This document shows positions 10,611 to 29,475 of a stretch of DNA of 64,000 bases, one piece after another (position 1 is the first letter of the stretch; each line of letters opens with the position of its first letter). Source of the stretch: an uncultured Methylopila sp. (lineage in GTDB: Bacteria; Pseudomonadota; Alphaproteobacteria; Rhizobiales; Methylopilaceae); NCBI GenBank assembly GCA_902168115.1, contig CABHPB010000109.1, positions 1 to 64,000 on the forward strand. Direction: 5' to 3'. The position numbers and the translations under genes were made by a program. The notes under the pieces are model-generated. The model did not search any database. It worked only from the letters and a program-made list of their open reading frames with translations, and was not told where the DNA came from.

Positions 10611-10639
10611 TTGACAGCCTCCGGCAAAGCTCTGATAGA
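10611..10639 (+). promoter_or_regulatory. Sigma70-like promoter of the polyketide operon
   Basis: TTGACA at 10611-10616 and GATAGA at 10634-10639 are separated by 17 bp, a near-consensus housekeeping promoter. It would start transcription about 60 bases before the small ORF that overlaps the polyketide synthase start. Nothing else gene-like lies in 10502-10708. Confidence 0.5.
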
Positions 10640-10708
10640 CGAACCGAGCCCCCACGCAACGTCGCCCGCCCGGCTCCTGTTCGGGCCAACGTCCCGGAGC
10701 ACGGGTGA

Positions 10709-10816
10709 ATGATCGGTTTTGAGTTGACGGCCCTTGAAGCGAAGGGGGGATCGCCGGTAGCGGCGATCGGCGCCGCCGTCGACGCTCTCATTGCGGGAAT
10801 GCGGTCGCGCTCATGA
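10709..10816 (+). CDS. Short ORF overlapping the PKS start (possible leader)
   Basis: 35 codons, MIGFELTALEAKGGSPVAAI, ending in a TGA that overlaps the polyketide synthase ATG (ATGA, four bases). A GGAG motif lies 9 bases before its ATG, while the polyketide synthase itself has only a poor ribosome site, so translation of this ORF could feed ribosomes into the large gene. The peptide is not recognised and may have no function beyond coupling. Confidence 0.4.
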   Translation: MIGFELTALEAKGGSPVAAIGAAVDALIAGMRSRS

Positions 10817-13800
10817 CGAAACAGACTGGTCTTGCGATCGTCGGACGGGCCTGTCGCCTTCCGGGCGCGAACGACGTCGAATCCTTCTGGAACTTGCTCG
10901 AGGAGGGCCGTTGCGCCGTCACCGAGATCGGTGAGGACCGCTGGTCCCACGCGCGTTATCTGCATCCGCGCAAGGGCGAGCCGGGCAAGAGCTACACCTT
11001 CGCGGCCGGCGTTCTGGACGACGTCTTCGGCTTCGATCCGGCTGCGTTCGGCGTCTCGCCGCGCGAGGCCGAGCAGATGGACCCGCAGCAACGCCTCGCG
11101 CTGAAGCTCGTCTGGGAAGCGCTCGAGGACGCCGGAATTCCGCCCTCGTCGATCGCGGGATCGGAGACCGGCGTCTATGTCGGCGCGTCTTCGCTCGACT
11201 ACGGCAACCGCATCATTTTCGATCCGAGCTCGGCCGACGCCTATTTCGCGACCGGAAATACGCTCTCGATCGTATCAAATCGTATTTCGTACATTTACGA
11301 TTTTCATGGTCCGAGCTTCACCGTCGACACCGCCTGCTCGTCCTCGCTCGTCGCCCTGAACGAGGCCGTCGCGGCGATCCGTTCGGGCCGCATCGAGCGC
11401 GCCGTCGTGGTGGGCGTGTCGATCCTCGCCAGCCCCTATCCGTTCATCTCTTTCGCCCAGGCGACCATGCTGTCGCCACGCGGCCGCTGCCACGCCTTCG
11501 ACGCCTCCGGTGACGGCTATGTCCGCTCCGAGGGCGGCGTCGCGATCGTGATCGAGCGGGCGGACCTCGCCCGCGCCGCGCGCCGTCCGATGCGCGCCAT
11601 GATCGCCGCGTCGGGCGTCAATTCCGACGGCCGCACGGTCGGCATGTCGCTGCCGTCTCCCGAGGCGCAGCTCAGCCTGCTCGAGCGGGTGTATGTCGAC
11701 GCCGGCGTCGATCCGGACAGCCTCGCCTTCATCGAGGCGCACGGCACCGGCACGCGCGTCGGGGACCCGGCCGAGGCCAACGCCATCGGCGCCGCCATCA
11801 AGTCCCGCACCGTCGGCCCGCTGCCGATCGGCTCGGTGAAGACGAATGTCGGCCATCTGGAGCCGGCCTCCGGTCTCGTCGGCCTGCTGAAGGCGGACCT
11901 CGCGCTCGAGCGCGACCTGTTCCCGGCGAGCCTGCACGTCACCGAGCTGAACCCGGACATCCCGTTCGACGAGCTGAAGCTCCACGTCGCCACCAAGGCG
12001 GTGAAGCTGCCGCGCGGCGCGAGCCAGCGCTACGCCGGCGTCAACTCCTTCGGCTTCGGCGGCACCAACGCCCACGTCATCCTGTGCGACCCGACGCCCG
12101 AGGACCGCGCCGGCAAGGCCGCGCCGCGCGTCGTCGAGGCCGACGGTCGCACGCCGGTGCTCGCGCTTTCGGCCCGCTCGCAGGAGGCGCTGCAGGCGCT
12201 CGCCGCGTCCTACGCCAAGACGCTGGAAGGCCGTGACTCGGCGTCCGCGCGCCATGTCGCGACCAGCGTCGCGGCGACCCGCGACCTGCTCCCGCGCCGC
12301 CTGGTGCTGGAGAGCGACGACGCCTCCACCTGGGGCGCGACGCTCGCCGCCATCGCTTCCGGCGGCGAGGCCTCCGGGGCCGCGATCGAGCAGGCCGTCG
12401 GCCGCGACGCGCCGGTCGCCTTCGCCTTCTCCGGAAACGGCTCGCAGTGGGCCGGAATGGGGCGCAAGCTCCACCAGACCAACCCGGCCTTCCGCGACAA
12501 GGTCGCCGAGATCGACGCGCACTTCACCAAGATCGCGCCCTGGTCGATCGCCGACGCCATGTTCGCGGACGACCTGCCGGAGCGGCTGAAGCGCGCCGAG
12601 TTCGCGCAGCCGCTGCTGTTCGCGGTCCAGACCGGCATGGTCGCCGCGCTCGCCGCAGCCGGCGTGACGCCGGACTTCGTGCTCGGCCATTCGGTCGGCG
12701 AGGTCGCCGCCGCGGTCGCGTCGGGCGCGTTGTCGCTGCGCCAGGGCGTCGAGGTCATCCACTCGCGCTCGATCCATCAGGAGATCGCCTGGAAGGCGGG
12801 ATCGATGGCGGCCGTGCTGCAGTCGGCCGAAGAGACCGAGAAGCTGCTCAAGGAGGGCGGCTTCAAGGGCGTCGAGATCGCCGCGGTCAACAGCGAGCGT
12901 TCGATCACCGTTTCGGGGCCCGACGACGAGATCAAGGCGCTCGCCAAGTTCGCGCGCACCAAGCGCGTGCCGGTGCGCGTGCTCGACATCGAGTATCCGT
13001 TCCACACCGGCCTGATCGACGGCGTGCGTGAGCCGCTGATGGAGGACCTCAAGGGCCTCAAGCCGCGCGCGACGGAGCGGACCTTCGTCTCCAGCGTGAC
13101 CGGCGAGATCGCGGAGGGCGCCGACCTCGGCGCCGACTACTGGTGGGCGAACGTGCGCCAGCCGGTCGCCTTCGCGCCCGCCGCGGCCGCGGCCATCAAG
13201 GCCGGCACCCGCGTGTTCGTCGAGATCGGCCCGCGTCCGGTCCTGCAGACCTATCTCGCCGACGGCCTGTCGAGCGCCGAGGTCTCGGGCGGCGTCGTCT
13301 CCTGCGACGACCACGGAGCGGCCGAGCACGACACGATCCGCCGCACGCTGGCGCGCGTCGTCGCCAAGGGCGGCAAGGTCGATCGCGAGGCGGCCTTCGG
13401 CAAGCTGACCGGTCCGGCCGTGCGCCTGCCGACCTATCCCTGGCAGGAGTCGCGCTTCGCCGTCGGAGCGACCAACGAGCAGCAGTCGTTCTATCGCGGC
13501 TACGACGTCCATCCGCTGATCGGCGCGCGCATGCGGGCCGATTCCGACGAGTGGACCATCCATCTCGACCCGGCGCTGTCGCCGCTGATCGCCGACCACA
13601 AGGTCGGCGGACGGGTGGTCGTTCCGGGCGCGGCGCTCGCCGAAATGGCGCTCGCCGCCGCCCGCGGCTGGCTCCGCCAAGACATGGTCGAGCTTGCCGA
13701 CTTCGAGATCCCGCACGCCCTGACCCTCGATCCCGACGCGCTGACCGAGATCAAGACGCGCGTCTCGGCCGAGAGCCGCACCGTCGAGATCCTCAGCCGC

Positions 13801-16800
13801 CCGCGCCTGCGCGACGAGGGCTGGGTCGTCCACGCCATCGGCCGCATTTCTCCCGCCCCGACCACGCAGGTGTTCGCGCCGGGGGCGGGCGAGGGCGAGC
13901 CGGAGGTGTTCGAGGGCAAGGCGCTCTATGCGCGCACGCTCGAGCACGGCCTCGACTTCGGCCCGGCGTTCCAGTGCGTCGCCGAGGTCAAGCGGTACGG
14001 CCACGCGCGCCTGTCGGTGCGGCTGAAGCCTGTCGACGAGCGCAAGGGCGCTCGCGACGAGCGCTACGGCCTGCACCCGGCCGACTTCGACGCCTGCTTC
14101 CACTCGCTGATCACGCTGTTCGGCGAGCATGGCGACCGTCCGGACGTCACCTATCTGCCGATGCGCTTCGGCCAGCTCCGCCTCTACAAGCCGGGCCAGC
14201 AGCTGGTCGGCGCCGAAGTGGTCATCCGCCGCTTCAGCCCGCGCTCGATCGACGCGACCTTCACCTTCCTCGACGCCGACGGCGGCATCGTCGCCGAGCT
14301 CTCGGACGCGCGCTTCCGCGCCGTGACGCTCGCGCGCCGCACCCCGCTCGACCGGCTCGCCTACCACGTCGCCCCGGCGCTGGTCGCGCCGGCCTTCGAC
14401 GCGGCCGAGCCGAGCAAGACCGTCGACCTCGCGGCCAGCGCCAAGACGCTCGGCCTCGTCGGTTCCGATGACGACGAGCGTCCGGAAGCCGACCTCCTGC
14501 TCGAGGCCTTCGCGGTCGCCGCCGCCCATCAGGCGCTGACGAAGCTGTTCGGCCGCAAGCGCGAGGGCTCGACCGCGACCCTCACCAAGAAGGGCAAGCT
14601 CGCGGAAGCATCGCTGCCGCTCGCGAACCGGCTGCTCTCGATCCTCGAGGAGCGCGGCCATGCGAGCCTCGACGGCGAGACTTGGTCGCTCGCCCAGAGC
14701 ACCGGCCTGCCGACGACCGACGTCATCGTGCGCACCGTGCTCGCCGACCATCCGGAGCGCGGCGCGGAAGTCGTGCTCGCGTCCCGGGCCGCCTCGCTGC
14801 TGCCGAGCATCTTGAAGGACGGCCCGCGCGCCAAGGTCTACGGCTCCTCGACGATCGCGCACGCCGGCGGCGGCGCGCCGCTGACCGCCCGCGCGGCCGA
14901 AGCCCTCGCTTCGCTCGTGGCGGACTACGTCGCCGCGGCGCCCGACGACCGTCCGATCCGCATCCTCGAGATCGCGGCCGGCTCCGGCGGCCTGACGCGC
15001 GCGCTGTCGCGCCTCGCCGACGACACCCGCGTCACGCTGACGGTCACCGACCCGGACGCGACCGCCGCCGAGCGGCTACGCTTCGCCTTCGCCGGTCTTC
15101 CGAACGTCAAGGTCGAGCAGTTCGACCCGGCGTCCGAGGCCAGCGGCGAAGAGGTCGACCTGATCGTCGGCTCGCTCGCCTGGGGCGCCTCGACGGCGAG
15201 CCCGGAGGCGGTCCGCCGCCTCGCGACCCGCCTTGCCGACGGCGGCAAGCTCGCGCTCGCCGCGCTTGCGCCGACGCCGTTCCTCGACGTCGTGTTCGGC
15301 CTGCAGGACGGCTGGTTCTCCCGCTCGGCCTCGGCCGAGTTCCCGATCGGCGACGCCCGGTCGGCCGACGACTGGACCGCCGATCTCGCCGACGCGCGCC
15401 TGATCGAGCCGCTGGTCGCGACGCTCGCCGGCGCGGAGTCCCCCACCAACCTCGTGATCGCCTCCAAGCGTCGCTCGGCCTCGGCCGAGGCGCACGTCGC
15501 GGCGGTCGAGACGCCTGTCGTGATCGTCGGCGAGACGGCCGCAAGCCCGCTCGCCAAGGCGATCGCCGCGGCGCTCGAGGGCGCAGGACGCAAGGTCGCG
15601 GTCAAGGCCGAGGCTTTCGCGCCCCAGGCCAAGCCCGCGGGCAAGGGCAACGGCCACGCCAACGGCGCCGGTCATGGCGCGAGCGACTGGGGCGCCGCGA
15701 TCGACCTCGGCCTGACGCCTGCTCCGAAGAATGCGAGCGAGGCGACCGCCGACATCGTCGTAACGCTCGACGCCGAAGAGACGCCCGGATCGGTCGCCGT
15801 GACCGAGCGGGCGGGCCGGCTGCTCGGCCTGACCCGCGCGGCGCAGGCCGCCGGCGCGCGGCTCTGGGTCGTCGCTCCGGGCGGGCTCGCGGGCGCGCTC
15901 GGCGAGGCGCGCGATCGTCTGGATAACGCCGCCATCGGCGGCTACCTGCGCGTCGTCCGCAACGAGTTCCGCGGCGTCGACATCCGCTTCGTCGATGTCG
16001 ACGCGGGCCTGCCGGGCAAGACCGCGGCGGCCGCCGTCGCGGCCGAGATCGGCGCCCCGCGCGCCGACATCGAGATCGCGATCGGCCCCGAGGGCGTCAG
16101 CGCGCCGCGTCTGCGTCCGGGCCTGCCCGAGCTTCCCAAGGCCAAGCCCGTGAAGGGCCAGAAGGCCGCGCGGGTCGCGGCGCTCGAGTCCAGCGAGGGC
16201 GGTCTCGACGACCTCGGCTGGCGCGCCGCTCCCGAGCGTGCGCCCGGCAAGGGCGAGGTCGCCGTCGACGTCTCGGCCGTCGGCCTCAACTTCCGCGACG
16301 TGATGTGGGCGCTCGGCCTGCTGCCCGAGGAAGCGCTGGAAGACGGCTTCTCGGGTCCCGGCCTCGGCATCGAATGCGCCGGCGTCGTGTCGGCGGTCGG
16401 CGAGGGCGTCTCGGAGCTCAAGGTCGGCGACCGCGTCTCGGCCTTCGCCTCCGGCTCCTTCGCGTCCCGCGTCGTGACCTCCGAGCTCGCCGTCGCGAAG
16501 CTTCCGGACTCGATCGGCTTCGAGGAAGGCGCGACCATCCCGGTCTGCTTCCTGACCTCGTATTACGCGCTGGTCGAGCTCGCGCGCGTGCGCCGTGGCG
16601 AGTGGGTGCTGATCCATGGCGGCGCCGGCGGCGTCGGCCTCGCGGCGCTGCAGATCGCGCTGTGGAAGGGCGCCAAGGTCATCGCGACCGCCGGTTCTGA
16701 CGAGAAACGCGACCTGCTGCGCGCGCTCGGCGCGACCCACGTGCTGTCGAGCCGCAGCCTCGACTTCGTCGACGAGACCAGGCGCCTGACCGGCGGCCAG

Positions 16801-18429
16801 GGCGTCGACGTGGTGCTGAACTCGCTCTTCGGCGAGGCGATGGAGCGCTCGTTCCAGACGCTGAAGCCGTTCGGCCGGTTCCTGGAGCTCGGCAAGCGCG
16901 ACTACTACGCGAACTCGCGCCTCGGCCTCCGTCCGTTCCGACGCAACATCTCCTATTTCGGCATCGACGCGGACCAGCTGTTCATCCACCGCCGCGACCT
17001 CGGCAAGCGCCTGTTCACGGATGTGCTGAAGCTGTTCGCCAAGGGCGTCTTCGCGCCGCTGCCGTACCGCACCTTCGAGGCGGAGGAGATCCGCGACGCG
17101 TTCCGGTTGATGCAGCAGTCCGGCCATATCGGCAAGATCGTCGTGCGCCCGCTCGACCCCGCCAAGCTCCCGGTCGCCGAGCCGGCGGCATGGACTCCGG
17201 CCGAAGGCGTCCATGTCATGGTCGGCGGCCTCGGCGGCTTCGGCCTCGCCACCGCCGAGTGGCTGGTCGCCAAGGGCGCGACCAAGCTCGCGCTGATCGG
17301 CCGCTCGGGCGCGAAGTCGGAAGCCGCGAAGGCCGGCGTCAAGCGGCTCGAGGCCGCCGGCGCGACCGTCAAGGTCTTCGCCTGCGACGCCGCCGACGAG
17401 AAGGCGCTCGACAAGGCGCTGAAGGAGACGAGGCAGGAGCTCGGCCCGATCGGCGGCGCCTGGCACGTCGCCATGGTGTTGCACGACGCGCTGCTCGCGA
17501 ACCTCGACGAGGGCACCTTCGAGGTGGCGCTGCGTCCGAAGATCGACGGCGCGGCTGCGCTCGAGAAGCTGACGCGTCAGGACCCTGTCGGCGACTTCGT
17601 GGTCTATTCCTCCGCCACCACCGTCATCGGCAATCCGGGCCAGGCGAACTACGTCGCGGCCAACAGCTGGCTCGAGGCGCTGGTCCGCCAGCGTCGCGCC
17701 TCCGGCAAGGCGGGCCTCGCGATCGCCTGGGGCGCCCTCGGCGACGTCGGCTACCTCGCCCGCACCGGCGAGGTGAAGGAGAAGATCCAGAAGCGTCTCG
17801 GCTACGCCACGCTGTCGGGCGCGGAAGCGCTCGAAGGGCTCGGCCGCGTCCTGTCGCAGCGGGACATGCGCCTTGTGACCGGCGTGGTGACGATCGCCCC
17901 GATCGATTGGGGCGGGGCGCGCCGCGATCTCGCCTATCTCGCCTCGCCTACCTTCACGCAGGTCCTGGCGGACGCCGAGATGGGTCCGCAGGACAGCGGC
18001 GAGCAGATCGATCTCGGCGCGATGATCCGCGGCAAGGACGCCCGCGAGGCGCGCGACATCGTCGCGGAGATGCTGACGGGCGAAGTGGCGCGCATCCTCA
18101 AGCTGCCGGCGAAGGAAATCTCGCCGCAGCGGCCGCTCGCCGAGCTCGGCATGGACTCGCTCATGGGCCTCGAGTTGCGCATGAGCGTCGAAAGGCGCTT
18201 CGATATCGAACTGCCGCTCGTCGCGATCGGCGATTCGACGACGCTGCTCACGATCGCCCAGTCGATCGTGTCGCGCATCCACGAGCCGGACGCTGCGGCG
18301 GAAAGCGGGGCGGTCAACGCCGATCTCGCGAGCCGCCACATCGGCGACGAACTTGGCGAGGAAGAACTGGCCGAGTTCGGCGAAGCCGTTGAGGCGCGCC
18401 GGTTGTCGATGGGACGCGCGAACGCGTGA
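10813..18429 (+). CDS. Iterative-type highly reducing type I polyketide synthase
   Basis: 2,538 residues with a full reducing module. KS: Cys175 in VDTACSSS, His310 in EAHGTGT, His348 in NVGHLEP. AT: Ser627 in GHSVGE and His731 in YPFH, a malonyl-type pattern. DH: His929 in HKVGGRVVVP and Asp1093 in HPADFD, with His1097 where Gln is usual. A methyltransferase-like domain has LEIAAGSGGLT at about 1385-1395, followed by a structural-KR-like region and a Gly/His-rich linker near 1620. ER: GGAGGVG at 1937-1942. KR: GGLGGFG at 2138-2144, Ser2266/2267, Tyr2280, Asn2284. ACP: Ser2449 in GMDSL. There is no loading domain and no thioesterase. The order KS-AT-DH-MT-ER-KR-ACP is that of fungal highly reducing synthases making alkyl chains. 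The next gene, an alpha-oxoamine synthase 10 bp away, is the likely off-loading enzyme (inference). Confidence 0.96.
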   Translation: MTKQTGLAIVGRACRLPGANDVESFWNLLEEGRCAVTEIGEDRWSHARYLHPRKGEPGKSYTFAAGVLDDVFGFDPAAFGVSPREAEQMDPQQRLALKLVWEALEDAGIPPSSIAGSETGVYVGASSLDYGNRIIFDPSSADAYFATGNTLSIVSNRISYIYDFHGPSFTVDTACSSSLVALNEAVAAIRSGRIERAVVVGVSILASPYPFISFAQATMLSPRGRCHAFDASGDGYVRSEGGVAIVIERADLARAARRPMRAMIAASGVNSDGRTVGMSLPSPEAQLSLLERVYVDAGVDPDSLAFIEAHGTGTRVGDPAEANAIGAAIKSRTVGPLPIGSVKTNVGHLEPASGLVGLLKADLALERDLFPASLHVTELNPDIPFDELKLHVATKAVKLPRGASQRYAGVNSFGFGGTNAHVILCDPTPEDRAGKAAPRVVEADGRTPVLALSARSQEALQALAASYAKTLEGRDSASARHVATSVAATRDLLPRRLVLESDDASTWGATLAAIASGGEASGAAIEQAVGRDAPVAFAFSGNGSQWAGMGRKLHQTNPAFRDKVAEIDAHFTKIAPWSIADAMFADDLPERLKRAEFAQPLLFAVQTGMVAALAAAGVTPDFVLGHSVGEVAAAVASGALSLRQGVEVIHSRSIHQEIAWKAGSMAAVLQSAEETEKLLKEGGFKGVEIAAVNSERSITVSGPDDEIKALAKFARTKRVPVRVLDIEYPFHTGLIDGVREPLMEDLKGLKPRATERTFVSSVTGEIAEGADLGADYWWANVRQPVAFAPAAAAAIKAGTRVFVEIGPRPVLQTYLADGLSSAEVSGGVVSCDDHGAAEHDTIRRTLARVVAKGGKVDREAAFGKLTGPAVRLPTYPWQESRFAVGATNEQQSFYRGYDVHPLIGARMRADSDEWTIHLDPALSPLIADHKVGGRVVVPGAALAEMALAAARGWLRQDMVELADFEIPHALTLDPDALTEIKTRVSAESRTVEILSRPRLRDEGWVVHAIGRISPAPTTQVFAPGAGEGEPEVFEGKALYARTLEHGLDFGPAFQCVAEVKRYGHARLSVRLKPVDERKGARDERYGLHPADFDACFHSLITLFGEHGDRPDVTYLPMRFGQLRLYKPGQQLVGAEVVIRRFSPRSIDATFTFLDADGGIVAELSDARFRAVTLARRTPLDRLAYHVAPALVAPAFDAAEPSKTVDLAASAKTLGLVGSDDDERPEADLLLEAFAVAAAHQALTKLFGRKREGSTATLTKKGKLAEASLPLANRLLSILEERGHASLDGETWSLAQSTGLPTTDVIVRTVLADHPERGAEVVLASRAASLLPSILKDGPRAKVYGSSTIAHAGGGAPLTARAAEALASLVADYVAAAPDDRPIRILEIAAGSGGLTRALSRLADDTRVTLTVTDPDATAAERLRFAFAGLPNVKVEQFDPASEASGEEVDLIVGSLAWGASTASPEAVRRLATRLADGGKLALAALAPTPFLDVVFGLQDGWFSRSASAEFPIGDARSADDWTADLADARLIEPLVATLAGAESPTNLVIASKRRSASAEAHVAAVETPVVIVGETAASPLAKAIAAALEGAGRKVAVKAEAFAPQAKPAGKGNGHANGAGHGASDWGAAIDLGLTPAPKNASEATADIVVTLDAEETPGSVAVTERAGRLLGLTRAAQAAGARLWVVAPGGLAGALGEARDRLDNAAIGGYLRVVRNEFRGVDIRFVDVDAGLPGKTAAAAVAAEIGAPRADIEIAIGPEGVSAPRLRPGLPELPKAKPVKGQKAARVAALESSEGGLDDLGWRAAPERAPGKGEVAVDVSAVGLNFRDVMWALGLLPEEALEDGFSGPGLGIECAGVVSAVGEGVSELKVGDRVSAFASGSFASRVVTSELAVAKLPDSIGFEEGATIPVCFLTSYYALVELARVRRGEWVLIHGGAGGVGLAALQIALWKGAKVIATAGSDEKRDLLRALGATHVLSSRSLDFVDETRRLTGGQGVDVVLNSLFGEAMERSFQTLKPFGRFLELGKRDYYANSRLGLRPFRRNISYFGIDADQLFIHRRDLGKRLFTDVLKLFAKGVFAPLPYRTFEAEEIRDAFRLMQQSGHIGKIVVRPLDPAKLPVAEPAAWTPAEGVHVMVGGLGGFGLATAEWLVAKGATKLALIGRSGAKSEAAKAGVKRLEAAGATVKVFACDAADEKALDKALKETRQELGPIGGAWHVAMVLHDALLANLDEGTFEVALRPKIDGAAALEKLTRQDPVGDFVVYSSATTVIGNPGQANYVAANSWLEALVRQRRASGKAGLAIAWGALGDVGYLARTGEVKEKIQKRLGYATLSGAEALEGLGRVLSQRDMRLVTGVVTIAPIDWGGARRDLAYLASPTFTQVLADAEMGPQDSGEQIDLGAMIRGKDAREARDIVAEMLTGEVARILKLPAKEISPQRPLAELGMDSLMGLELRMSVERRFDIELPLVAIGDSTTLLTIAQSIVSRIHEPDAAAESGAVNADLASRHIGDELGEEELAEFGEAVEARRLSMGRANA

Positions 18430-18439
18430 CGGCGGTATC

Positions 18440-19831
18440 ATGACTGCAAGACGTGGCATCGGGGCGCTCTCGCGCTCCGCGAAAGACGGCATCCTGGGCG
18501 CGATCCGCACCCAGCCGAAGCAGGAGGCGCCGGCGCGATCCGGCGCCGCGCCGACCGTGGTGACCCGCAAGGTCAAGCGCGGCGACCGCTTCGCGGACTT
18601 GGCCGAGCTGAAGGACGTCCGCACCCAGCAGGCGGTCGCGGATCTGATCGGCGTGCAGAACCCGTTCTTCGCAATGCATGACGGCTGCGCCGGCGCGACC
18701 ATCAAGCTCGACGGCCGCGACCTCATCAACTTCGCGTCCTACAACTATCTCGGCCTCAACGGTCATCCCGAGATCGCCGCGGCCGCGAAGGCCGCGATCG
18801 ACCACTACGGCGTCTCCGCCTCTGCGAGCCGCGTCGTCGCGGGCGAGCGGCCGATCCATCGCGAGCTCGAGCGCCGCATCGCCGACTACTACGGGGTCGA
18901 CGACGCCGTCGCCTTCGTGTCGGGCCACGCGACCAATGTCTCCGCCATCGGCCATCTGATGCGGAAGAACGACCTGATCGTCTACGACGCGCTGGCGCAC
19001 AACTCGATCGTCGTCGGCGCGACCCTGTCCGGCGCGACGCGCCGCATGTTCGCGCACAACGACCTCGACGCGCTGGAGGAAATCCTCATCCAGCAGGGCC
19101 ACGCCTTCGAGCGGGTGCTCGTCGCGGTCGAGGGCCTCTATTCGATGGACGGCGACTTCCCCGACCTCGCGCGGCTCGTGAAGATGCGCGACCGCTACGG
19201 CTTCTGGCTGATGGTCGACGAGGCCCATTCGCTCGGCGTGCTGGGCGCCACCGGCGGCGGCATCGCCGAGGAGTGCGGCGTCGAGCACAAGAACGTCGAC
19301 ATCTGGATGGGCACGCTGTCCAAGACCCTGTCGGGCTGCGGCGGCTACATCGCCGGCTCGCAGAGCCTCGTCGAGTACCTGAAGTTCTCCGCGCCCGGCT
19401 TCGTCTATTCGGTCGGCATGCCGCCGGCGGTCGCGGCCTCGGCCATCGCCTGCTTCGACATCCTGAAGCGCGAGCCGGAGCGCGTCGCCAAGCTCCGCGC
19501 CAACGGCCGGCGCTTCGTCGAGCAGGCCAAGGCGCGCGGCCTCGACGTCGGCACCGCGACGGACACTGCGATCGTGCCGGTGATGATCGGCGACTCACTT
19601 CGCGCCGTGCATCTCGCCAACCGTCTGCGCGAGCGCGGCGTCAACGCGCTGCCGATCGTTCATCCGGCGGTGCCGGAGCGTTCGGCGCGGCTGCGCTTCT
19701 TCCTCACCGCCGACCACGACTTCGAGCAGATCGACGAAGCGGTGGCTGTGACGGCGGACGAGCACGACAAGCTCGCCAAGGCCGGCTTCGGGATCAAGAT
19801 GGCGGCCGCTTTGGCCAAGGCGACGCGGTAG
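18440..19831 (+). CDS. Alpha-oxoamine synthase (serine palmitoyltransferase-like)
   Basis: 463 residues from MTARRGIGALSRS; fold-type I PLP enzyme of the SPT/KBL/BioF family. Visible motifs: NFASYNYLGLNGHPEI, a DEAHSLGVLG aspartate contacting the pyridine nitrogen, and Lys295 in GTLSKTLSGCGGY forming the Schiff base. An N-terminal extension of about 80 residues precedes the catalytic core. Family members condense an acyl thioester with an amino acid, losing CO2. Immediately downstream of a thioesterase-less polyketide synthase, the likely reaction is condensation of the ACP-bound chain with serine, alanine or glycine to give a 3-keto sphingoid-like base, as Fum8 does for fumonisin. Amino acid choice cannot be read here. 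Confidence 0.93.
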   Translation: MTARRGIGALSRSAKDGILGAIRTQPKQEAPARSGAAPTVVTRKVKRGDRFADLAELKDVRTQQAVADLIGVQNPFFAMHDGCAGATIKLDGRDLINFASYNYLGLNGHPEIAAAAKAAIDHYGVSASASRVVAGERPIHRELERRIADYYGVDDAVAFVSGHATNVSAIGHLMRKNDLIVYDALAHNSIVVGATLSGATRRMFAHNDLDALEEILIQQGHAFERVLVAVEGLYSMDGDFPDLARLVKMRDRYGFWLMVDEAHSLGVLGATGGGIAEECGVEHKNVDIWMGTLSKTLSGCGGYIAGSQSLVEYLKFSAPGFVYSVGMPPAVAASAIACFDILKREPERVAKLRANGRRFVEQAKARGLDVGTATDTAIVPVMIGDSLRAVHLANRLRERGVNALPIVHPAVPERSARLRFFLTADHDFEQIDEAVAVTADEHDKLAKAGFGIKMAAALAKATR

Positions 19832-19839
19832 AGCCGATC

Positions 19840-21006
19840 TTGTCGACCGCCCCGCGAACCGCAGGAAAGACCGCCGCTGGCGGCGTCGAGGTTCGCCCGG
19901 TCGAAACGGCGCGCGACATCGACGCGCTGTGGAAGGCGGAACTCGCGGCGCAGGGCGGCGACCCGGCCTTCACGCCGCGGCTCCACAAGGAGCTGAAGGA
20001 CGTCCTCACCCCGAAGGCGACGCCTTTCGCCAAGGCCAATGACGGCATGGCCTGGGTCGCGTTCCGCGACGGCAGGCCGGTCGGCCGCATCTACGCCGTG
20101 CAGCATCACGCCCATCTCGAGAAGCACAAGGACGGCGCGGGCCACTTCGGCTTCCTCGAGGCGATCGACGACGACGCCGTCTGGGACGCGCTGTTCGAGA
20201 CCGCCTCCGACTTCCTGCGCGCGCGCGGCCTGACGAAGATCGCCGGCCCGTTCAGCGCCTCGGTCAACCATGAATGCGGGCTGCAGGTCTTCGGCTACGG
20301 CGCCCGCTCGACCACCCACACGAACTATGCGCCGCCCTATTACGCGACGCAGCTCGAGCGGCTCGGCTTCCGCGGCGTGAAGGACATCGTCGGCTACGAA
20401 GGCGGCGTGACGACCAGCCGCCTGCCGCAGCGCGTGACGGCCGCCCGCGCCAAATGGTCGGACGGCAAGAACCTGGAGCTGCGTCCCGCCGTCGGGCCGG
20501 ACGCTCTCGGCCAGATCGTGTCGGTCTACAACGACGCCTGGTCGGACAACTGGGGCTCGGTGCCGGCCACGATGGAGGAGTCCAAGTTCCTCGCGGAGCT
20601 CGCGGCCGGGATCCTGCCGCGCGACTGGTCGACGCTCGCCTTCTGGCTCGGCGAGCCGATCGGCGTCCTCGTCATGGCGCCTGACGTCAATGAGGCCGTG
20701 CGCGATCTCGGAGGCCGCCTCGCGCCCTTCGGCTGGGCCAAGCTGATCTGGCGGCTCAAGGTTTCCGGCGTAAAGCGCGCGCGCGTGCCGGTCATCGGCG
20801 TCCGGCGCGCTTTCCGCGGCACGAGGGTGGGCGCGATGGCGGCCGCCACGCTGCTCGCTGACGCGGTCGCGAAGGCCAAGGCCGCCGGCGTGGAGCGGCT
20901 CGAGGTCAGCTGGATGCTCGAGGAGAACCGCCCGATCATCAACCTCGTGCGCGGCATGCCGGCCGAGCACACCAAGACCTGGCGGATCTACTCCAAGCCG
21001 CTGTGA
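19840..21006 (+). CDS. GNAT/YghO-like acyltransferase
   Basis: 388 residues from a TTG start 8 bp after the synthase gene; the longer frame into the upstream gene is a shadow. It resembles the YghO family of GNAT-fold proteins: AWVAFRDGRPVGRIYAVQHHAHLEKH, HFGFLEAIDDDAVWDALFETASDFLRARGLTKIAGPFSASVNHECG, then NYAPPYYATQLERLGF and a second GNAT-like half ending LEVSWMLEENRPIINLVRGM. Bacterial ceramide synthase of Caulobacter is also GNAT-like, so an N-acylation of the amino base made upstream is an attractive inference. Direct homology to that enzyme was not tested. Confidence 0.8.
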   Translation: MSTAPRTAGKTAAGGVEVRPVETARDIDALWKAELAAQGGDPAFTPRLHKELKDVLTPKATPFAKANDGMAWVAFRDGRPVGRIYAVQHHAHLEKHKDGAGHFGFLEAIDDDAVWDALFETASDFLRARGLTKIAGPFSASVNHECGLQVFGYGARSTTHTNYAPPYYATQLERLGFRGVKDIVGYEGGVTTSRLPQRVTAARAKWSDGKNLELRPAVGPDALGQIVSVYNDAWSDNWGSVPATMEESKFLAELAAGILPRDWSTLAFWLGEPIGVLVMAPDVNEAVRDLGGRLAPFGWAKLIWRLKVSGVKRARVPVIGVRRAFRGTRVGAMAAATLLADAVAKAKAAGVERLEVSWMLEENRPIINLVRGMPAEHTKTWRIYSKPL

Positions 21007-23549: not shown

Positions 23550-24656
23550 ATGCCTGCGGTCGATGTCGAGCCAAACCCCTACAGCGATCTTCCCGAGAGC
23601 GCGTTCTGGCGGAACGCGGTCCAGAACGGCGATCCGCTGAACCCCGATACGATCTACAGCCGCAAGTTCGAGATCACGCGCGACGCCCAGATCGCGACTG
23701 CCGGAAGCTGCTTCGCCCAGCACATCGCGCGTCATCTGAGAGCGCAGGGTTTCCCGGTGATCGACACCGAACGCGCTCCCGGCGGGCTGACGGGCAAAGC
23801 CGCCGAGGCGTTCGGATACGGCCTGTATTCGGCGCGGTACGGCAACCTCTACACCGTCCGTCAGTTGCGCCAGCTGATCGAGGAAATCACGACTCCCAAG
23901 ACCCAGGAGATGGTCGTCTGGGAGCGCGACGGTCGCTATTTCGACGCCCTGCGCCCGAGCGTCGAGCCGGAAGGCCTCGACAGCCCGGAAGAGGTGATGG
24001 CGCATCGCGCGTCGCATCTGCGGTCGGTGGCCCGGATGATCCGGACGATGGACCTCTTCATCTTCACGCTCGGACTGACGGAGACCTGGATCCACAAGCG
24101 CACCGGGATCGTCTATCCGACCGCGCCCGGCGTCATCGCGGGCAAGTTCGACTCCAGCGAGTTCGAGTTCAAGAACTTCACGCATTCCGAGATCATGGCG
24201 GATCTCGAGCAGGTCCGCCGCCTGCTGAAGCGCCGCCGTCCCGACCTCAAGTTCATCCTGACCGTCTCTCCAGTGCCGCTCACGGCGACCGCCTCGGGCC
24301 GGCACGTCCTGCCCGCGACGCAGTATTCGAAGGCGACCCTGCGCTCCGCGGCCGGCGAGATGGCCGACCAGCACGACGACGTCGATTACTTCCCGTCCTA
24401 CGAGATCATCACCAATCCGGCGGCGCGCTCGGACTTCTTCGCCGGAAACCTGCGCTCCATCGCGCCGCAGGGCGTCGGCGCGGTGATGCGGACCTTCTCC
24501 GCCGCCCACGTTCCGGAGGAGGCCGCGCCGATCGCTCCGCCGCTGTCGGCGCCCCCGGCGCCGGTCGAGACGCCGCGTGCCCGCCGGCCGCGGGACGAGG
24601 ACGACGTGGTGTGCGAGGAGATGCTGCTCGACGCCTTCGCGAAGGGGCGGCGCTGA
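23550..24656 (+). CDS. GSCFA-domain protein
   Basis: 368 residues from MPAVDVEPNPYSDLPES, with GAGGAG ahead of the ATG. It has the family-naming motif IATAGSCFAQHIARHL, then FTLGLTETWIHKRTGIVYPTAPGV and LKFILTVSPVPLTAT, a typical GSCFA domain (SGNH-hydrolase relative of uncertain activity), followed by a Pro/Arg-rich tail. GSCFA proteins are often found near polysaccharide genes. Its stop overlaps the next start (TGATG), so it is translationally coupled to the SGNH-like gene, beginning a three-gene plus-strand operon. Confidence 0.9.
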   Translation: MPAVDVEPNPYSDLPESAFWRNAVQNGDPLNPDTIYSRKFEITRDAQIATAGSCFAQHIARHLRAQGFPVIDTERAPGGLTGKAAEAFGYGLYSARYGNLYTVRQLRQLIEEITTPKTQEMVVWERDGRYFDALRPSVEPEGLDSPEEVMAHRASHLRSVARMIRTMDLFIFTLGLTETWIHKRTGIVYPTAPGVIAGKFDSSEFEFKNFTHSEIMADLEQVRRLLKRRRPDLKFILTVSPVPLTATASGRHVLPATQYSKATLRSAAGEMADQHDDVDYFPSYEIITNPAARSDFFAGNLRSIAPQGVGAVMRTFSAAHVPEEAAPIAPPLSAPPAPVETPRARRPRDEDDVVCEEMLLDAFAKGRR

Positions 24657-25501
24657 TGCAGGACGTCTCCGCCGAACTGCAGCCCGCAGGCGTCGCGCCG
24701 GCCGCCGGCGTGCGCCGCGGGCTGATCATCGGCAATTCCTACGCGATCGCGCTGAAGGACGGTCTCGAGGACAGCGATCTGCCGTGCCGCGAGGACTTTT
24801 CCTTCCTGTGCGCGCCGGGCTCCGAGCTGCAGGTCGACGTCGTCGACGGCAGGATCGTGCCGACCGCCGAGCGCGCGATGACCTTCCTCGCCCGCGACGT
24901 TCCCGACGGCGACATGCGGCTCGACGACTACGACGTGTTCGTGCTCGCCGGGCTCGGCGTCAGCGCGAACCAGTGCGGGCGCGTCTATCGCTCCTGGCGC
25001 CTCGCGCGTCACGCGGGCGAGCGGCACGCGCTGATCTCCCGCGGCGCCCTGCTCGCGGCGATCGAGGGGCTGTTGCGCCTGACCATCTCCTACAAGGTCG
25101 CATCGCAGCTTCGGGCGCACACCTCCAAGCCGATCGTGATCGTGCCGCAGCCCAATCCGATCGAGCGGATCAAGACCGTCGAGCGCACGACCGATCGTCT
25201 GAAGGAGACGTTCGAGAAGTGGGGCCTGTTCTTCGACGAGCCGCTCGCCGAAGAGCTCTACGAGGCGTTCCTCGAGGCCGCCCGCCGCGCGTTCGGCGAG
25301 ATCCCCGCCGCCTTCATGGAGCAGCCGGCCTCGAGCCGGGCCGGTTTCTTCACGCGCGACGAGTACCAGATGAAGCTGCGCACCACCTACGACCGCAGCC
25401 AGCAGGTTCCGAACACGGTCGAGGACGTCACGCACATGAACGCCGATTTCGGCCGGCTGACCATGGAGATGCTGTGGGCCGACGTCGGCGGCGCGCGCTG
25501 A
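24656..25501 (+). CDS. SGNH-like hydrolase or acyltransferase, hypothetical
   Basis: 281 residues from MQDVSAELQPAG. Two stretches fit an SGNH fold: a block I-like GLIIGNSYAIALKDGL (Ser after GN) near residue 25 and, at the C-terminus, DVTHMNADFG with the DxxH spacing of the catalytic Asp/His. The intermediate Gly/Asn blocks are less clear. It could add or remove acyl groups on a glycan, which would fit the coupled GSCFA gene upstream and the fucosyltransferase-like gene downstream. No closer family name is supported. Confidence 0.65.
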   Translation: MQDVSAELQPAGVAPAAGVRRGLIIGNSYAIALKDGLEDSDLPCREDFSFLCAPGSELQVDVVDGRIVPTAERAMTFLARDVPDGDMRLDDYDVFVLAGLGVSANQCGRVYRSWRLARHAGERHALISRGALLAAIEGLLRLTISYKVASQLRAHTSKPIVIVPQPNPIERIKTVERTTDRLKETFEKWGLFFDEPLAEELYEAFLEAARRAFGEIPAAFMEQPASSRAGFFTRDEYQMKLRTTYDRSQQVPNTVEDVTHMNADFGRLTMEMLWADVGGAR

Positions 25502-25524
25502 CCCGTCGAGGGCGGATCGAGACC

Positions 25525-26658
25525 GTGAGCGGGGCGGCGGAGCAGCCGGCCGGGCGGGTCGACGGCTCCGGAACGGCCGTCCCGACCATTACGATCCGGC
25601 GGACGGACGGACTTGGCGGACGGCTGCTCGCGCTCGTCCGGGTGCTCCGTTTCGCCGAGAAGCTCGGCGCGCGGGTGACGATGCGCTGGGCCTCGCTCGC
25701 CTACACCTTCCGCGACCACGGCGCGACCGACTGGACGCCGTCGGAGCTGTTCGACCTCGACCGGTTCGACTTCGACGGCCTCGACCTCGCCGAGGGGACG
25801 CCGGAGCCGCTTGACCCCGGCACGCTCGTGCTCGAGGAGCGGCCGGACCTCGCCCAGCACCTGCGCTTCGGCTTCGATCCGGAAACGCTGCTGGCGCATG
25901 GCGCGTCGTTCGCGTCCAACGGCCAGCGGCTTCTGCGCCTCGTCGGCGAGACCGACGCCGATGTCCATGAAGGCCTCGTCACGGTCTTCGACCGCCTGAT
26001 CCCGAAGCAGGCGGTCCGCGACGAGTTCGCGGCGACGAAGGAGATCCTCGGTCCGCAGCCGTTCGTGGCGCTGCACGTCCGCCGGGGCGACGTCGTCTCG
26101 AACCTCGTCGGCAAGGCGGGTTCGGACGCTCCCGTCGCCGACCTCGAACCGGACATGCGGCATTTCGTGCGGCGCTGCGCGCCCGTCGCTCTGATGATCT
26201 CGGCGCTCGACGAACAGGCGCCGGGCGCAAAGGTGCTGATCTTCGGGGAGGACCCTCAGTCCATCGGCGAGGCCGCGGACGCGCTCGGGTCCCGCGCGCT
26301 GCTCGCGCCGGCGGCCGAGCGTCTCGGCCCCCTGCAGCGGGCTTTCCTGGAGATCCTGCTGATGCGGGAAGCGAGCGCGATCTACGCCTGCGCCAGCCAG
26401 TTCTCGCGCCTGCCGGCCCAGGTCGGCCGGGCCAGGCTTCACGAGATCGGCCCGGATGGCGATCCGGGCCTCTGGATCAGACATTTCGAGGCCGAAATTC
26501 TCGACCGCGTCTCGATCCAGTCGGAGCGCCGCGAGGAGCTTGCGGCGCTCTTCCTCGCCTTCTGGCGCGAGGTGGCCGATCGCGCGGAGCGGATACGGCA
26601 GCGGCCCGTCAGGGCGCCGCGCACCGACGTGCGCCCCGATCGGCCCGAACGTGTCTAG
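25525..26658 (+). CDS. O-fucosyltransferase-like glycosyltransferase
   Basis: 377 residues from a GTG start preceded by GAGGGCGGA. The N-terminal RTDGLGGRLLALVRVLRFAEKLGARVTMRW is like the nucleotide-sugar-binding start of GT11/GT23/POFUT enzymes, and HVRRGD at residues 184-189 is motif I of GDP-fucose transferases (NodZ, FUT2, FUT8). Cytoplasmic, with no membrane segment. It probably transfers fucose or another GDP-sugar to a surface glycan or protein. Its stop overlaps the convergent FkbM gene by four bases. Confidence 0.7.
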   Translation: MSGAAEQPAGRVDGSGTAVPTITIRRTDGLGGRLLALVRVLRFAEKLGARVTMRWASLAYTFRDHGATDWTPSELFDLDRFDFDGLDLAEGTPEPLDPGTLVLEERPDLAQHLRFGFDPETLLAHGASFASNGQRLLRLVGETDADVHEGLVTVFDRLIPKQAVRDEFAATKEILGPQPFVALHVRRGDVVSNLVGKAGSDAPVADLEPDMRHFVRRCAPVALMISALDEQAPGAKVLIFGEDPQSIGEAADALGSRALLAPAAERLGPLQRAFLEILLMREASAIYACASQFSRLPAQVGRARLHEIGPDGDPGLWIRHFEAEILDRVSIQSERREELAALFLAFWREVADRAERIRQRPVRAPRTDVRPDRPERV

Positions 26659-27680
26659 AGCACGATGAACTGCTTGAAGGTCAGGATGCCTCGCTCCGCG
26701 AGCGAGACCCTGAAGTAGCGGGCCTGCCCCTCCCATACGCGGTCCACCATGTAGTGGTGCATCCGACCGTTCCGGTTGTAGAGCCTGCGCCACTTCTCAC
26801 CGTCGACCGACGCCTCGATCACGAGGGACTTGGTGTGCTCCTCCGCGTTCGGGCGGTCGACGAAGATGACCCGGGAGACGTCTTTGACGGATCCCAGATC
26901 GACCTGCCACCAGGGGGCGTCCGACAGCTGGGTGGAGGTGATCGCGCTGAGGATGTCGCCGTTGACGGCCCGATCGGCGGTGAACGAGCGGATCGTGGAG
27001 CTCTGCGTCGCGGCGCATCCCTTTGCGAGGCTCTGCTCGGCATAGCGGTGCAGGCGTCCGCGCCGGCGCGAGAAGAAGGCGTTGCCCCAGCCCTCGCGGA
27101 TCATCTCGCACTCGCGGAACACGTAGTCCCGCTCGTAGAGGAAGTTCACGATCTCGACGAACTCGGCGCCGCCGACATAGGCCGGCTCGGCCGCGACCTC
27201 GACATAGATGGCGTCGATCTGGTCGAGGATGCGCTCGGCGCCCTTGAGCACGAGCAGGTCGGCGCCCTGGACGTCGATGCACAGGAGGCTGAAGTTCCTG
27301 CCGGCGTGCTCGTTGAGGACGATGTCGTCGAGCCGCTCGACGAAGCCCTCGATGCGTTCGGTGTAGGTGATGTTCGGCCTGATCGCCGACAGGGTGCCGA
27401 GTTCGAGCATGCTCGACGAGCGGCCGTCGTTGGACGCCACGTTGAAGGCGATCGGCTTGCCGGCCTCCTCGCCCACGATCGCCTTGCGGATGAAGTGCGG
27501 CTTGTTCTTGTCCATCCGCGCGTCGATCTCCTCCACGAAGGACGGGATCGCCTCAAGCATCAGGATGGGCCCGTCCATCGTGCGGGCGTAGGCCTCGTAT
27601 TCCCGGCCGTGATTGGCCCCGACGTGGATGACGCCTTCAAGAGGGACGCCATGGGCAGAGCAGTTTACGATCGGATTCAC
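26655..27680 (-). CDS. FkbM methyltransferase fused to F5/8-type C domain
   Basis: 341 residues from GTG (TTGAGG ahead). Residues about 15-210 are an FkbM-type SAM methyltransferase: GVIHVGANHGREYEAY (SAM loop), FSLLCIDVQGADLLVLKGAERIL. Residues about 215-341 look like a discoidin/F5-8 type C carbohydrate-binding module: KGCAATQSST..., WWQVDLGSVKDVSRVIFVDR, SLVIEASVDGEKWRRLY, ARYFRVSL. The fusion suggests O-methylation of a sugar on a glycan that the C domain holds. No signal peptide is seen, so it likely works in the cytoplasm. Confidence 0.85.
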   Translation of the reverse strand: MNPIVNCSAHGVPLEGVIHVGANHGREYEAYARTMDGPILMLEAIPSFVEEIDARMDKNKPHFIRKAIVGEEAGKPIAFNVASNDGRSSSMLELGTLSAIRPNITYTERIEGFVERLDDIVLNEHAGRNFSLLCIDVQGADLLVLKGAERILDQIDAIYVEVAAEPAYVGGAEFVEIVNFLYERDYVFRECEMIREGWGNAFFSRRRGRLHRYAEQSLAKGCAATQSSTIRSFTADRAVNGDILSAITSTQLSDAPWWQVDLGSVKDVSRVIFVDRPNAEEHTKSLVIEASVDGEKWRRLYNRNGRMHHYMVDRVWEGQARYFRVSLAERGILTFKQFIVL

Positions 27681-27840
27681 GAGCGCCTCAACAGTTTGGC
27701 CGCAACAAGGGTCGTCCGGGCGGGTTGGTCCGGGTCACGAGGGTGAAGACAATCGGCGGTTCGTCCAGAGCCCGAGCGGGCGGTCGCCGTCGGAGCGGGT
27801 CCGGCGGCGACCGCCCGTGCGTCAGGCCTGAAGACGCAGA

Positions 27841-28308
27841 TCAGTTCGTCGAGCGCGGGATCGGATAGATCCGGCCCTCGCTGTTCTGGCGCCAGGCGAA
27901 GCCGGGCGGGAGCGCGACGATCCGGCCGTCGGCGCCCTGGCGGTAGGCGTAGCCGGGCGGGATCGCGACGACACGTCCGTCGACGCCCTGGCGGTAGCCA
28001 TGGCCTTCCGGGATCGCGACGACGCGTCCGTCCGCGCCCTGTCGATAGCCGGCTCCCGGCGGGAGCGGAACCACGCGTCCGTCAGCGCCCTGCCGATAGG
28101 CATGGCCGGGCGTGATCGGCACGAGGCGCCCGTCCGCGCCCTCCCGCAGTCCGTGCCCGGCGGGGATCGCCACGAGACGTCCGTCCGCGCCCTGTCGTGA
28201 GGCCTGACCCGCCGGGATGACGACGGCGCGTCCGTCCGTGCCTTGCCGGGCCAGCGCCCCTTCCGGAACCTGCACCACGACTCCGTCGGTTCCAACCAAC
28301 TCGCGCAT
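27841..28308 (-). CDS. Protein built of nine 17-residue tandem repeats
   Basis: 155 residues with a perfect AGGAGG ribosome site. Apart from three leading residues the whole protein is repeats of 17 residues, consensus RQGADGRVVAIPPGYAY. The first unit (residues 4-20) and the last (140-155) are degenerate. Each unit has a DGR turn, a short beta strand (VVAIP) and an aromatic end, which suggests a beta-solenoid or hairpin array. There is no signal peptide and no cysteine. It lies between two FkbM-type genes on the same strand, so it may be a partner or substrate of that locus. Function unknown. Confidence 0.85.
   Translation of the reverse strand: MRELVGTDGVVVQVPEGALARQGTDGRAVVIPAGQASRQGADGRLVAIPAGHGLREGADGRLVPITPGHAYRQGADGRVVPLPPGAGYRQGADGRVVAIPEGHGYRQGVDGRVVAIPPGYAYRQGADGRIVALPPGFAWRQNSEGRIYPIPRSTN
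27892..28248. repeat. Seven 51-bp in-frame tandem repeats
   Basis: Seven complete 51-bp units encode residues 21-139 of the repeat protein. The plus-strand phrase CGTCCGTC(C/G)(G/A)CGCCCTG recurs every 51 bases, showing conservation at DNA level and so recent expansion or ongoing homogenisation. Copy number may vary between strains. Confidence 0.9.
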
Positions 28309-28354
28309 GTCGCACCTCCTAGTGATCGTTCGAGAATTCGCCCCTGCTTGTGCG

Positions 28355-29254
28355 TCAGTCGTTCGATACGGCCTCCTTGGTGGCCGGTCGCTCGGCGGTC
28401 AGCAGTTCCGTCGGCACGCGCCCGCCATAGCCGCGCTCGTCGGCCGAATAGACCTGGAACTGGAAGGGATCGATCTTGCGCCGCTTGTTGTCGAGCTGGC
28501 GCAGCGCGACCTCCGGGAGGCCGACGTTCACCATGGTGCCGTCGTAGAGCATGAAGATGCTGCCGGACCGCGACGGGTAGAACATCGAGTCGATCGAGTT
28601 GTCGGCGATGCCGATCTTGGCGAACTCTTCCTCGACGACGAAGATCGCGTTGCTCGATGTGACGCAGACGAGCTCGTACTTTTTCTGCTTGCCGAGCTCG
28701 ACCATCGCGCGGAGCGTGGAGCCCTGGTTGATCTCGAAGTCGAGGTCCTGGACGTAAACGACCTCGTTGGACGCCGCCGGGTTGAACTCGATCATCACCA
28801 CGCGCGGGCGATACTTCGTGACCGACTTCCAGATGTGCCAGTCGTTGCCGTCGATGTCGATCGAGAGCAGGTCGAAGCTCTGCGGCATCGGCGTCTTGCC
28901 GAAGTGGAACTCGAGGCTGTCCTTGCGGGGGTCGAGCCCCACCATGCCGCCGACGCAATGCACCTTCGGATTGTCGCCGTGCCGCTTCACCAGTTCTTCG
29001 TGGCGACGCGCATTGCCCTCGATCTGGATCGAGCTCCAGCCCTTGTTGGCGATGAGGTTGTATGTGTTGCTGTGGGTGTAGCCGTCCCATGCGCCGAACT
29101 CGACGCACCACTTGCTGCCTTCGCCAATGAGCTCGAAGATCTTTTCGAGAATGCCGTCTTCGCCGTACTGAGAAGTCACCGACTTCGCATAATCAAGAAG
29201 GTACACACTTTCCTTTTTGACGCGATTATGACGCAGGTGGCGAATTATCGGCAT
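28355..29254 (-). CDS. FkbM-like methyltransferase domain protein
   Basis: 299 residues from MPIIRHLRHNRVKK; an in-frame ATG at 29329 with GGAG is an alternative longer start. It has a Rossmann-type SAM motif CVEFGAWDGYTHSNTYNLI, then IQIEGNARRHEELVKRHGD and FDLLSIDIDGNDWHIW with RPRVVMIEFNP, as in FkbM-related proteins of polysaccharide clusters. About 100 C-terminal residues are not recognised. Located 46 bp upstream of the repeat-protein gene, probably in the same transcript. The 5-prime end and upstream 200 bp are AT-richer than the surroundings. Confidence 0.8.
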   Translation of the reverse strand: MPIIRHLRHNRVKKESVYLLDYAKSVTSQYGEDGILEKIFELIGEGSKWCVEFGAWDGYTHSNTYNLIANKGWSSIQIEGNARRHEELVKRHGDNPKVHCVGGMVGLDPRKDSLEFHFGKTPMPQSFDLLSIDIDGNDWHIWKSVTKYRPRVVMIEFNPAASNEVVYVQDLDFEINQGSTLRAMVELGKQKKYELVCVTSSNAIFVVEEEFAKIGIADNSIDSMFYPSRSGSIFMLYDGTMVNVGLPEVALRQLDNKRRKIDPFQFQVYSADERGYGGRVPTELLTAERPATKEAVSND

Positions 29255-29475
29255 GCGAACCCCCAAGATCCAGCCAGACTTCTTTCGATCAAAGCGTCGA
29301 AAACGAAGCCAAGAAAAATCATAGACCATATTTCTCCAATGAGAAGCGACGCAAAAGCGTCGAGACGTCGCGCGTCTGGCGCTGGTTTTAAAGGCTCGCG
29401 CAGAGCTGAGACCCAAGGGCTTCTGCGACGGGTCGCGGTCAACATGGATTGCGCGCAAGTCAGTGCGGGCGGTCG

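Follow-up and report, generated by a model that had tools for sequence, protein, structure and literature searches.

A three-gene operon of a Methylopila species that may make a polyketide-derived ceramide-like lipid, possibly for capsule synthesis

We have analysed a 64,000-nucleotide stretch of DNA from an uncultured Methylopila sp. (contig CABHPB010000109.1, positions 1 to 64,000; hereafter the window), in which a plus-strand operon of three genes (10813-21006) encodes a polyketide synthase (PKS), an alpha-oxoamine synthase (AOS) and a tandem-GNAT protein (Table 1). An earlier sequence-only reading had described a KS-AT-DH-MT-ER-KR-ACP synthase without a thioesterase (TE), followed 10 bases on by the AOS and another 8 bases on by a GNAT-like gene. 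This layout was confirmed by the open reading frames and by Pfam searches. The operon start placed at 10611 proved to be the position of an upstream TTGACA hexamer, the PKS beginning with the ATG at 10813.

The Pfam matches of the PKS comprised KS, AT, DH (PS-DH and PKS_DH_N), methyltransferase (MT), ER (ADH_N/ADH_zinc_N), KR and PP-binding domains, and no thioesterase was among the 19 Pfam families matched. The motifs present were the KS C173/H310/H345 region, the AT GHSVGE with YPFH, the DH HxxxGxxxxP, MT motif I, the ER and KR nucleotide motifs and the ACP DSL, all of which we take to have the functional meaning these labels give them. The single pattern tested for the KR catalytic residues gave no match as written. 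The SAM-binding motif I of the MT domain (residues 1384-1393 of the window PKS) was intact in all full-length PKSs read from the genus and in that of Aquibaculum, and it was eroded in most RkpA/SgaA relatives of an 84-row PKS alignment. Since the motif is intact in this genus, a methyl-branched chain is possible for the window PKS.

Table 1. Coordinates of the operon and its upstream element in the window
Feature	Position	Strand	Remarks
RkpA/SgaA-type iterative reducing type I PKS, KS-AT-DH-MT-ER-KR-ACP, no TE	10813..18429	+	2538 aa, ATG start
RkpG/SgaB-type alpha-oxoamine synthase, PLP lysine K295	18440..19831	+	463 aa, ATG start; 10-base gap after PKS
Tandem-GNAT protein, PKS-linked clade related to bacterial ceramide synthase	19840..21006	+	388 aa, TTG start (probable); 8-base gap after AOS
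Promoter-like TTGACA hexamer upstream of operon, weak	10611..10640	+	Read from sequence alone

The AOS matched Aminotran_1_2 (E 5.5e-51) and SPT/BioF/Kbl models, none above the NCBIfam cut-off. Against solved structures, it matched bacterial serine palmitoyltransferase (SPT; 1.6e-67) and, far more weakly, fungal SphA (9pep, E 1.1e-28). A quick AOS tree, in which several rows stood on long branches, split the PKS-linked AOSs from the three canonical SPTs included with a support of 100 (SH-aLRT), and N188 was present in 84 of 86 AOS rows, with Ala in its place in all three canonical SPTs. A scan with the AOS alignment over 84,980 species genomes gave at least 556 relatives, the best 80 of which were used as loci; a PKS was visible in the stretch around the AOS at 73 of them. 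In the window, the mono-modular reducing PKS, devoid of a thioesterase, stands directly before the AOS with the 10-base gap, as in pairs of the SgaAB/RkpAG type. Such PKS-AOS pairs form a family already known and widespread (RkpA/G, WcbR, SgaA/B), hence the pair is not new by itself. The sequence-only reading had noted neither this family nor the strong link of the pair to capsule genes described below.

That reading had proposed that the PKS and the SPT-type enzyme form a sphingoid-base system, and this was supported by the precedent of SgaA/SgaB from Pseudomonas fluorescens MYb115, published in 2025 (PMC12134224). MYb115 SgaA/SgaB yield C24, C26 and C28 sphinganines and probable phosphoglycerol sphingolipids, SgaB prefers L-serine as substrate, and SgaC, a KDSR-like short-chain dehydrogenase/reductase (SDR), has been proposed to belong to the cluster (PMC12134224). 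The same report counted 6101 SgaAB-homologous clusters and found that the MYb115 sphingolipids protect worms (PMC12134224).

What is new in the operon is the third gene, which, judged by its relatives, looks like a dedicated ceramide synthase. The window GNAT gave weak Pfam GNAT matches (23.9 and 22.2 bits, just above the cut-offs) and no NCBIfam match; its predicted fold is a tandem GNAT, and no solved structure matched it meaningfully in sequence. It is 32% identical to a paralog on contig C82 of the same genome, 32% to YghO and at most 40% to proteins outside the clade of trio GNATs. It keeps all 22 columns that are invariant in 59 other proteins resembling bacterial ceramide synthase (CerS), the residue-column counts being made without the six rows L090 to L095. 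In a tree of 80 CerS-like proteins (rows L091 and L095 on long branches), the 15 PKS-linked GNATs formed a single clade (100/100, and 100% of 200 bootstrap trees) and the C82-type paralogs of the genus a separate one (13 rows, 100/100). The kinship of the GNAT-like gene to bacterial ceramide synthase and YghO, suggested earlier, was thus supported, and an E. coli record (L176) places yghO itself in a sphingolipid-type cluster, next to an AOS, an acyl carrier protein (ACP), an epimerase, an acyl-AMP ligase and LptF/G. In the stretch of E. coli K-12 MG1655 (L009), yghO borders IS5, and AOS, ACP, epimerase and ligase are not listed beside it. The window GNAT is not in or near an SPT-AcpR-AasR-CerR cluster; its partner is the PKS-AOS pair, and the cluster paralog is a different gene. 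We have therefore filed it as a clade related to CerS, not as CerS itself.

A GNAT was detected next to the PKS-AOS pair at six of the best 80 loci: four of the genus, one of Aquibaculum arenosum and one of a Beijerinckiaceae genome. The Aquibaculum protein is 49% identical to the window GNAT and the Beijerinckiaceae protein 41%, the gene order of the latter locus being AOS-GNAT-PKS. The trio rows required three changes on the quick AOS tree, suggesting that one GNAT subfamily stayed with, or moved between, different PKS-AOS pairs, and such an association argues for action on the product of the pair.

Within the family, the GNAT was found in 13 of the 18 genomes searched, all of one genus and with two copies each, and in none of the five genomes of other genera. 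The 13 genomes include Chelatococcus sambhunathii S14, Hansschlegelia quercus, H. beijingensis and Methylopila turkensis. The order PKS-AOS-GNAT was kept in all 13 (12 loci plus the window), which rules out the trio as a product of chance or artefact; at one locus (G009/L078), the PKS reading frame is broken within KS and ER. A window-type PKS was present at 0 of 28 other GNAT loci fetched from the taxonomic order, 18 of which (L056-L074 except L059) hold at least two other C82-type cluster genes. Of the 20 loci fetched from the class, 19 lacked the trio, the 20th being Aquibaculum, and samples of 385 from the class and 398 from the phylum gave no further outlier score. In the order of genome G460, a trio-type GNAT was also found in a further genome of the G460 genus, at the end of a contig; no PKS was visible there, and neither SDR nor KpsS was found in the stretch examined. 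Some members of the window's order (L075, L088 and L089) have a KS-like protein, 27-28% identical to the PKS KS, together with SPT-type and CerS-type genes, which might be a different means of supplying SPT.

All 15 trio genomes (13 of the genus, Aquibaculum and Beijerinckiaceae) carried a second CerS-type GNAT. In the Methylopila genome this is the C82 paralog (C82:44453-45589), whose neighbours encode an ABC protein, an acyl ligase, an ACP, an SPT, a CDP-alcohol transferase, LptF/G-like permeases and a nucleotidyltransferase; the ACP lies directly between ligase and SPT (C82:28001-48000, L010). The set is much like the Caulobacter sphingolipid cluster (PMC11324152) and recurred at all 6 further genus loci fetched (7/7 with the own genome). 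In the Beijerinckiaceae genome, the second GNAT adjoins another AOS, and the other C82-type genes were not seen in the stretch examined. As the C82 cluster has its own CerS-type gene, the trio represents an extra pathway beside normal sphingolipid synthesis. The idea that the PKS replaces normal sphingolipid synthesis was therefore rejected, the Caulobacter-type cluster being present in all but CerR. CerR was not found in the C82-cluster stretches of the own genome or of six other genus genomes (L010, L269-L274); a Klebsiella query gave a 32% partial epimerase match as its best in the own genome, and an order-level query gave epimerase-like best matches of 30-33% in the five genus genomes searched, own included. 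With no convincing CerR in the own genome, CerR was rejected as the keto-reductase of the pathway.

We know of no agreed product of RkpA or WcbR. Clusters with the type I PKS genes wcbR/rkpA are already in print as holding capsule genes (PMC3908369), and an rkpA mutant of S. fredii HH103 lacks KPS, the K-antigen (PMC4270759). We have measured this association within about 10 kb on each side of the locus. Genes for KpsS, KpsC or RkpU-like proteins were found at 46 of 73 PKS-AOS loci (at least 80 bits) vs 1 of 55 CerS/SPT-type control loci of similar length, searched with no bit cut-off and including one from the Beijerinckiaceae genome of L149 (Fisher p 1.9e-14, with controls not matched by taxon and kinship uncorrected). 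KpsS together with an SDR occurred at 30 of the 73 PKS loci, and 26 of 44 genus-level groups were positive for capsule genes; all seven Burkholderia loci were negative, though the alphaproteobacterial queries and the stretch examined may not suffice there. In the own genome, RkpU-like, KpsC-like and KpsS-like genes all lie on contig C141, and Capsule_synth was matched in 14 of 14 genomes searched vs 2 of 14 control genomes. The trio of Aquibaculum is followed directly by SDR and KpsS. A separate locus, on the Acidisoma sp. PAMC 29798 plasmid NZ_CP126995 (11014-36147, L181), has an AOS, an SDR and a YghO-type GNAT adjoining capsule and lipoteichoic acid (LTA)-synthase-like genes, which independently hints at an association of ceramide-type lipids with capsules.

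Group 2/3 capsules have phosphatidylglycerol as their lipid base, and KpsS and KpsC are the enzymes that attach Kdo to a phospholipid carrier (PMC13410964). By analogy, phosphoglycerol sphinganines of the SgaAB type would be a natural equivalent of this carrier. Capsules or rkp are not mentioned in the main text of PMC12134224, and a PKS-made sphinganine tied to KpsS capsules was not found in the literature searched.

We favour, with moderate confidence, the reading that the three genes together produce a ceramide-like lipid of polyketide origin, which the KpsS/KpsC capsule pathway probably uses. Gene content, homologies, conservation, the distinct GNAT clade and the linkage to capsule genes are observed here; all the reactions catalysed in this lineage, the GNAT substrate and the capsule role are what we infer from the genes and their relatives. 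The PKS would build a long reduced, perhaps methyl-branched, acyl chain iteratively on its own ACP, where the chain would stay for want of a thioesterase. The AOS would then free it in a decarboxylative condensation, for which L-serine is the most likely amino acid, and so form a long-chain 3-keto sphingoid base. The GNAT would N-acylate this base, probably before keto reduction. Such an order has been proposed for the Caulobacter enzyme bCerS, thought to acylate 3-keto-sphinganine ahead of reduction (PMC11087976), and it fits an operon without a reductase. The keto group would next be reduced by an enzyme encoded elsewhere, and the lipid would likely gain a phosphoglycerol or similar head group and most probably serve as acceptor or anchor for the KpsS/KpsC capsule pathway.

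For the reduction step, the earlier reading had noted that no keto-reductase gene is adjacent. No SDR was found in the 12 genus trio loci fetched; a candidate lies elsewhere in the genome. This SgaC/RkpH-like SDR on contig C141 overlaps the end of kpsS, and KpsS and SDR genes adjoin or overlap in all 5 genus genomes examined; in the wider set, a KDSR-like SDR was shown at 38 of the 73 PKS loci. We regard the C141 SDR as the best candidate for the keto reduction.

Several observations weigh against the favoured pathway. Only 56 of the 83 columns conserved at 85% or more in CerS-like proteins are kept by the window GNAT (27 are not); H144 and T161 stand where E/D and M, respectively, are mostly found, so that its acceptor or acyl donor may differ from that of an ordinary CerS. 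The MYb115 products are sphinganines and phosphoglycerol sphinganines, with no ceramide described for that cluster in the available part of PMC12134224, which places N-acylation outside the known pathway. Among the 26 SDR matches in the genome, that on C141 ranks only fifth in similarity to RkpH. As to the capsule, the stretch examined gave no capsule-gene match of at least 80 bits at 27 of 73 PKS loci, the KpsS/KpsC/KpsD-RkpU genes are not beside the trio in genus loci L096-L099, and the nearest surface-type genes (GSCFA, FkbM) begin about 2.5 kb downstream of it.

This distance from capsule genes within the genus would also suit a free membrane sphingolipid or ceramide, forming a second envelope pool with very long or branched chains and no tie to a capsule. 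Ceramides are membrane lipids in Caulobacter (PMC11324152, PMC11087976), and the same Methylopila genome holds the Caulobacter-like lipid cluster with LptF/G homologs. We nevertheless consider this explanation somewhat unlikely, given the capsule genes at 46/73 homologous PKS-AOS loci vs 1/55 control CerS/SPT loci, the SDR and KpsS adjoining the Aquibaculum trio, and the loss of K-antigen in the rkpA mutant (PMC4270759). It is less likely still that the GNAT acylates another amine (of a sugar, protein or amino acid) and is merely co-transcribed with the pair, as its identity to the C82 paralog and YghO (32% each), the 22/22 invariant columns and the recurrence of the same subclade with PKS-AOS in three families and two gene orders speak for a CerS-like role. 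A secreted aminolipid or secondary metabolite, a sphinganine analogue acting on other organisms such as fungal PKS-AOS pairs make and as worm protection by the MYb115 sphingolipids might suggest, is quite improbable, since the trio in 13/13 genus genomes searched suits a housekeeping envelope role better and the flanking EamA transporters are not specific.

Beyond the polyketide-derived ceramide-like lipid proposed for the window, we tentatively entertain, at somewhat less than even chances, a broader scheme. PKS-AOS pairs (RkpA/G, WcbR, SgaA/B) would make the lipid base of ABC-exported, KpsS/KpsC-primed capsules, a polyketide-derived phosphoglycerol sphingoid taking the place of a phosphatidylglycerol-type anchor; in Methylopilaceae, Aquibaculum and a Beijerinckiaceae lineage, a dedicated ceramide synthase would turn it into a two-chain polyketide ceramide, leaving one ceramide pathway for membranes and one for the capsule. 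If true, it would unite the RkpA/WcbR and SgaAB findings in a direct answer that can be tested, namely that a PKS-made sphingoid is the lipid of the capsule. The trio adds an apparent dedicated ceramide synthase to a known PKS-AOS pair, and a polyketide-derived ceramide route in bacteria was not found in the literature searched. Genomes with the trio offer two ceramide-type pathways side by side for study, and the linkage of PKS-AOS relatives to capsule genes suggests that the lipid may anchor the sugar coat of the cell.

The genes flanking the trio in the window include EamA transporters, which we judged not specific. Downstream of the trio, the region 23550-30615 may hold surface-polysaccharide genes: it encodes GSCFA, an FkbM methyltransferase carrying an F5/8C domain, and several proteins that matched nothing in Pfam.

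In fungi, highly reducing PKSs with Fum8/SphA-type AOSs (fumonisin, sphingofungin) give sphinganine analogues by decarboxylative off-loading. The trio would share this off-loading logic; the sequence comparison with the fungal pairs consists of the AOS-SphA match. The S. meliloti pSymB locus is closer, with a PKS 39.7% identical over 2459 aa, an AOS 56.3% identical and an SDR beside the pair; it is taken to be RkpA-RkpG-RkpH of the rkp-1 K-antigen region, an application of these names that is partly our assumption. The names come from PMC7902896. The WcbR-type PKS of Burkholderia is grouped with this region among the nearest known systems. The SDR, RkpU-like and KpsS-like genes of the Sinorhizobium rkp-1 region are also found in the Methylopila genome, but there the capsule genes lie on a contig other than that of the trio, and no GNAT was detected at the S. 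meliloti locus. SgaA/SgaB likewise consist of an iterative type I PKS followed by an SPT-type AOS, with 37.1% identity over the whole PKS as measured via the stand-ins P. putida (L154) and P. paraversuta (L163). They differ in the clustered SDR proposed there (SgaC), the Methylopila candidate being on another contig, and in the third gene, a GNAT in the trio, whereas no ceramide-synthase-like gene is named in the available part of PMC12134224. The Aquibaculum PKS is 45.3% identical to that of the window over 2506 aa. Lastly, the trio GNATs share homology with CerS (CC_1154 of Caulobacter, YghO of E. coli) through YghO and the CerS-type genes of Caulobacter-like clusters, on which, and not on the CC_1154 sequence, the likeness to CC_1154 rests; they differ in standing with a PKS-AOS pair, whereas the context of CerS is ligase-AcpR-SPT.

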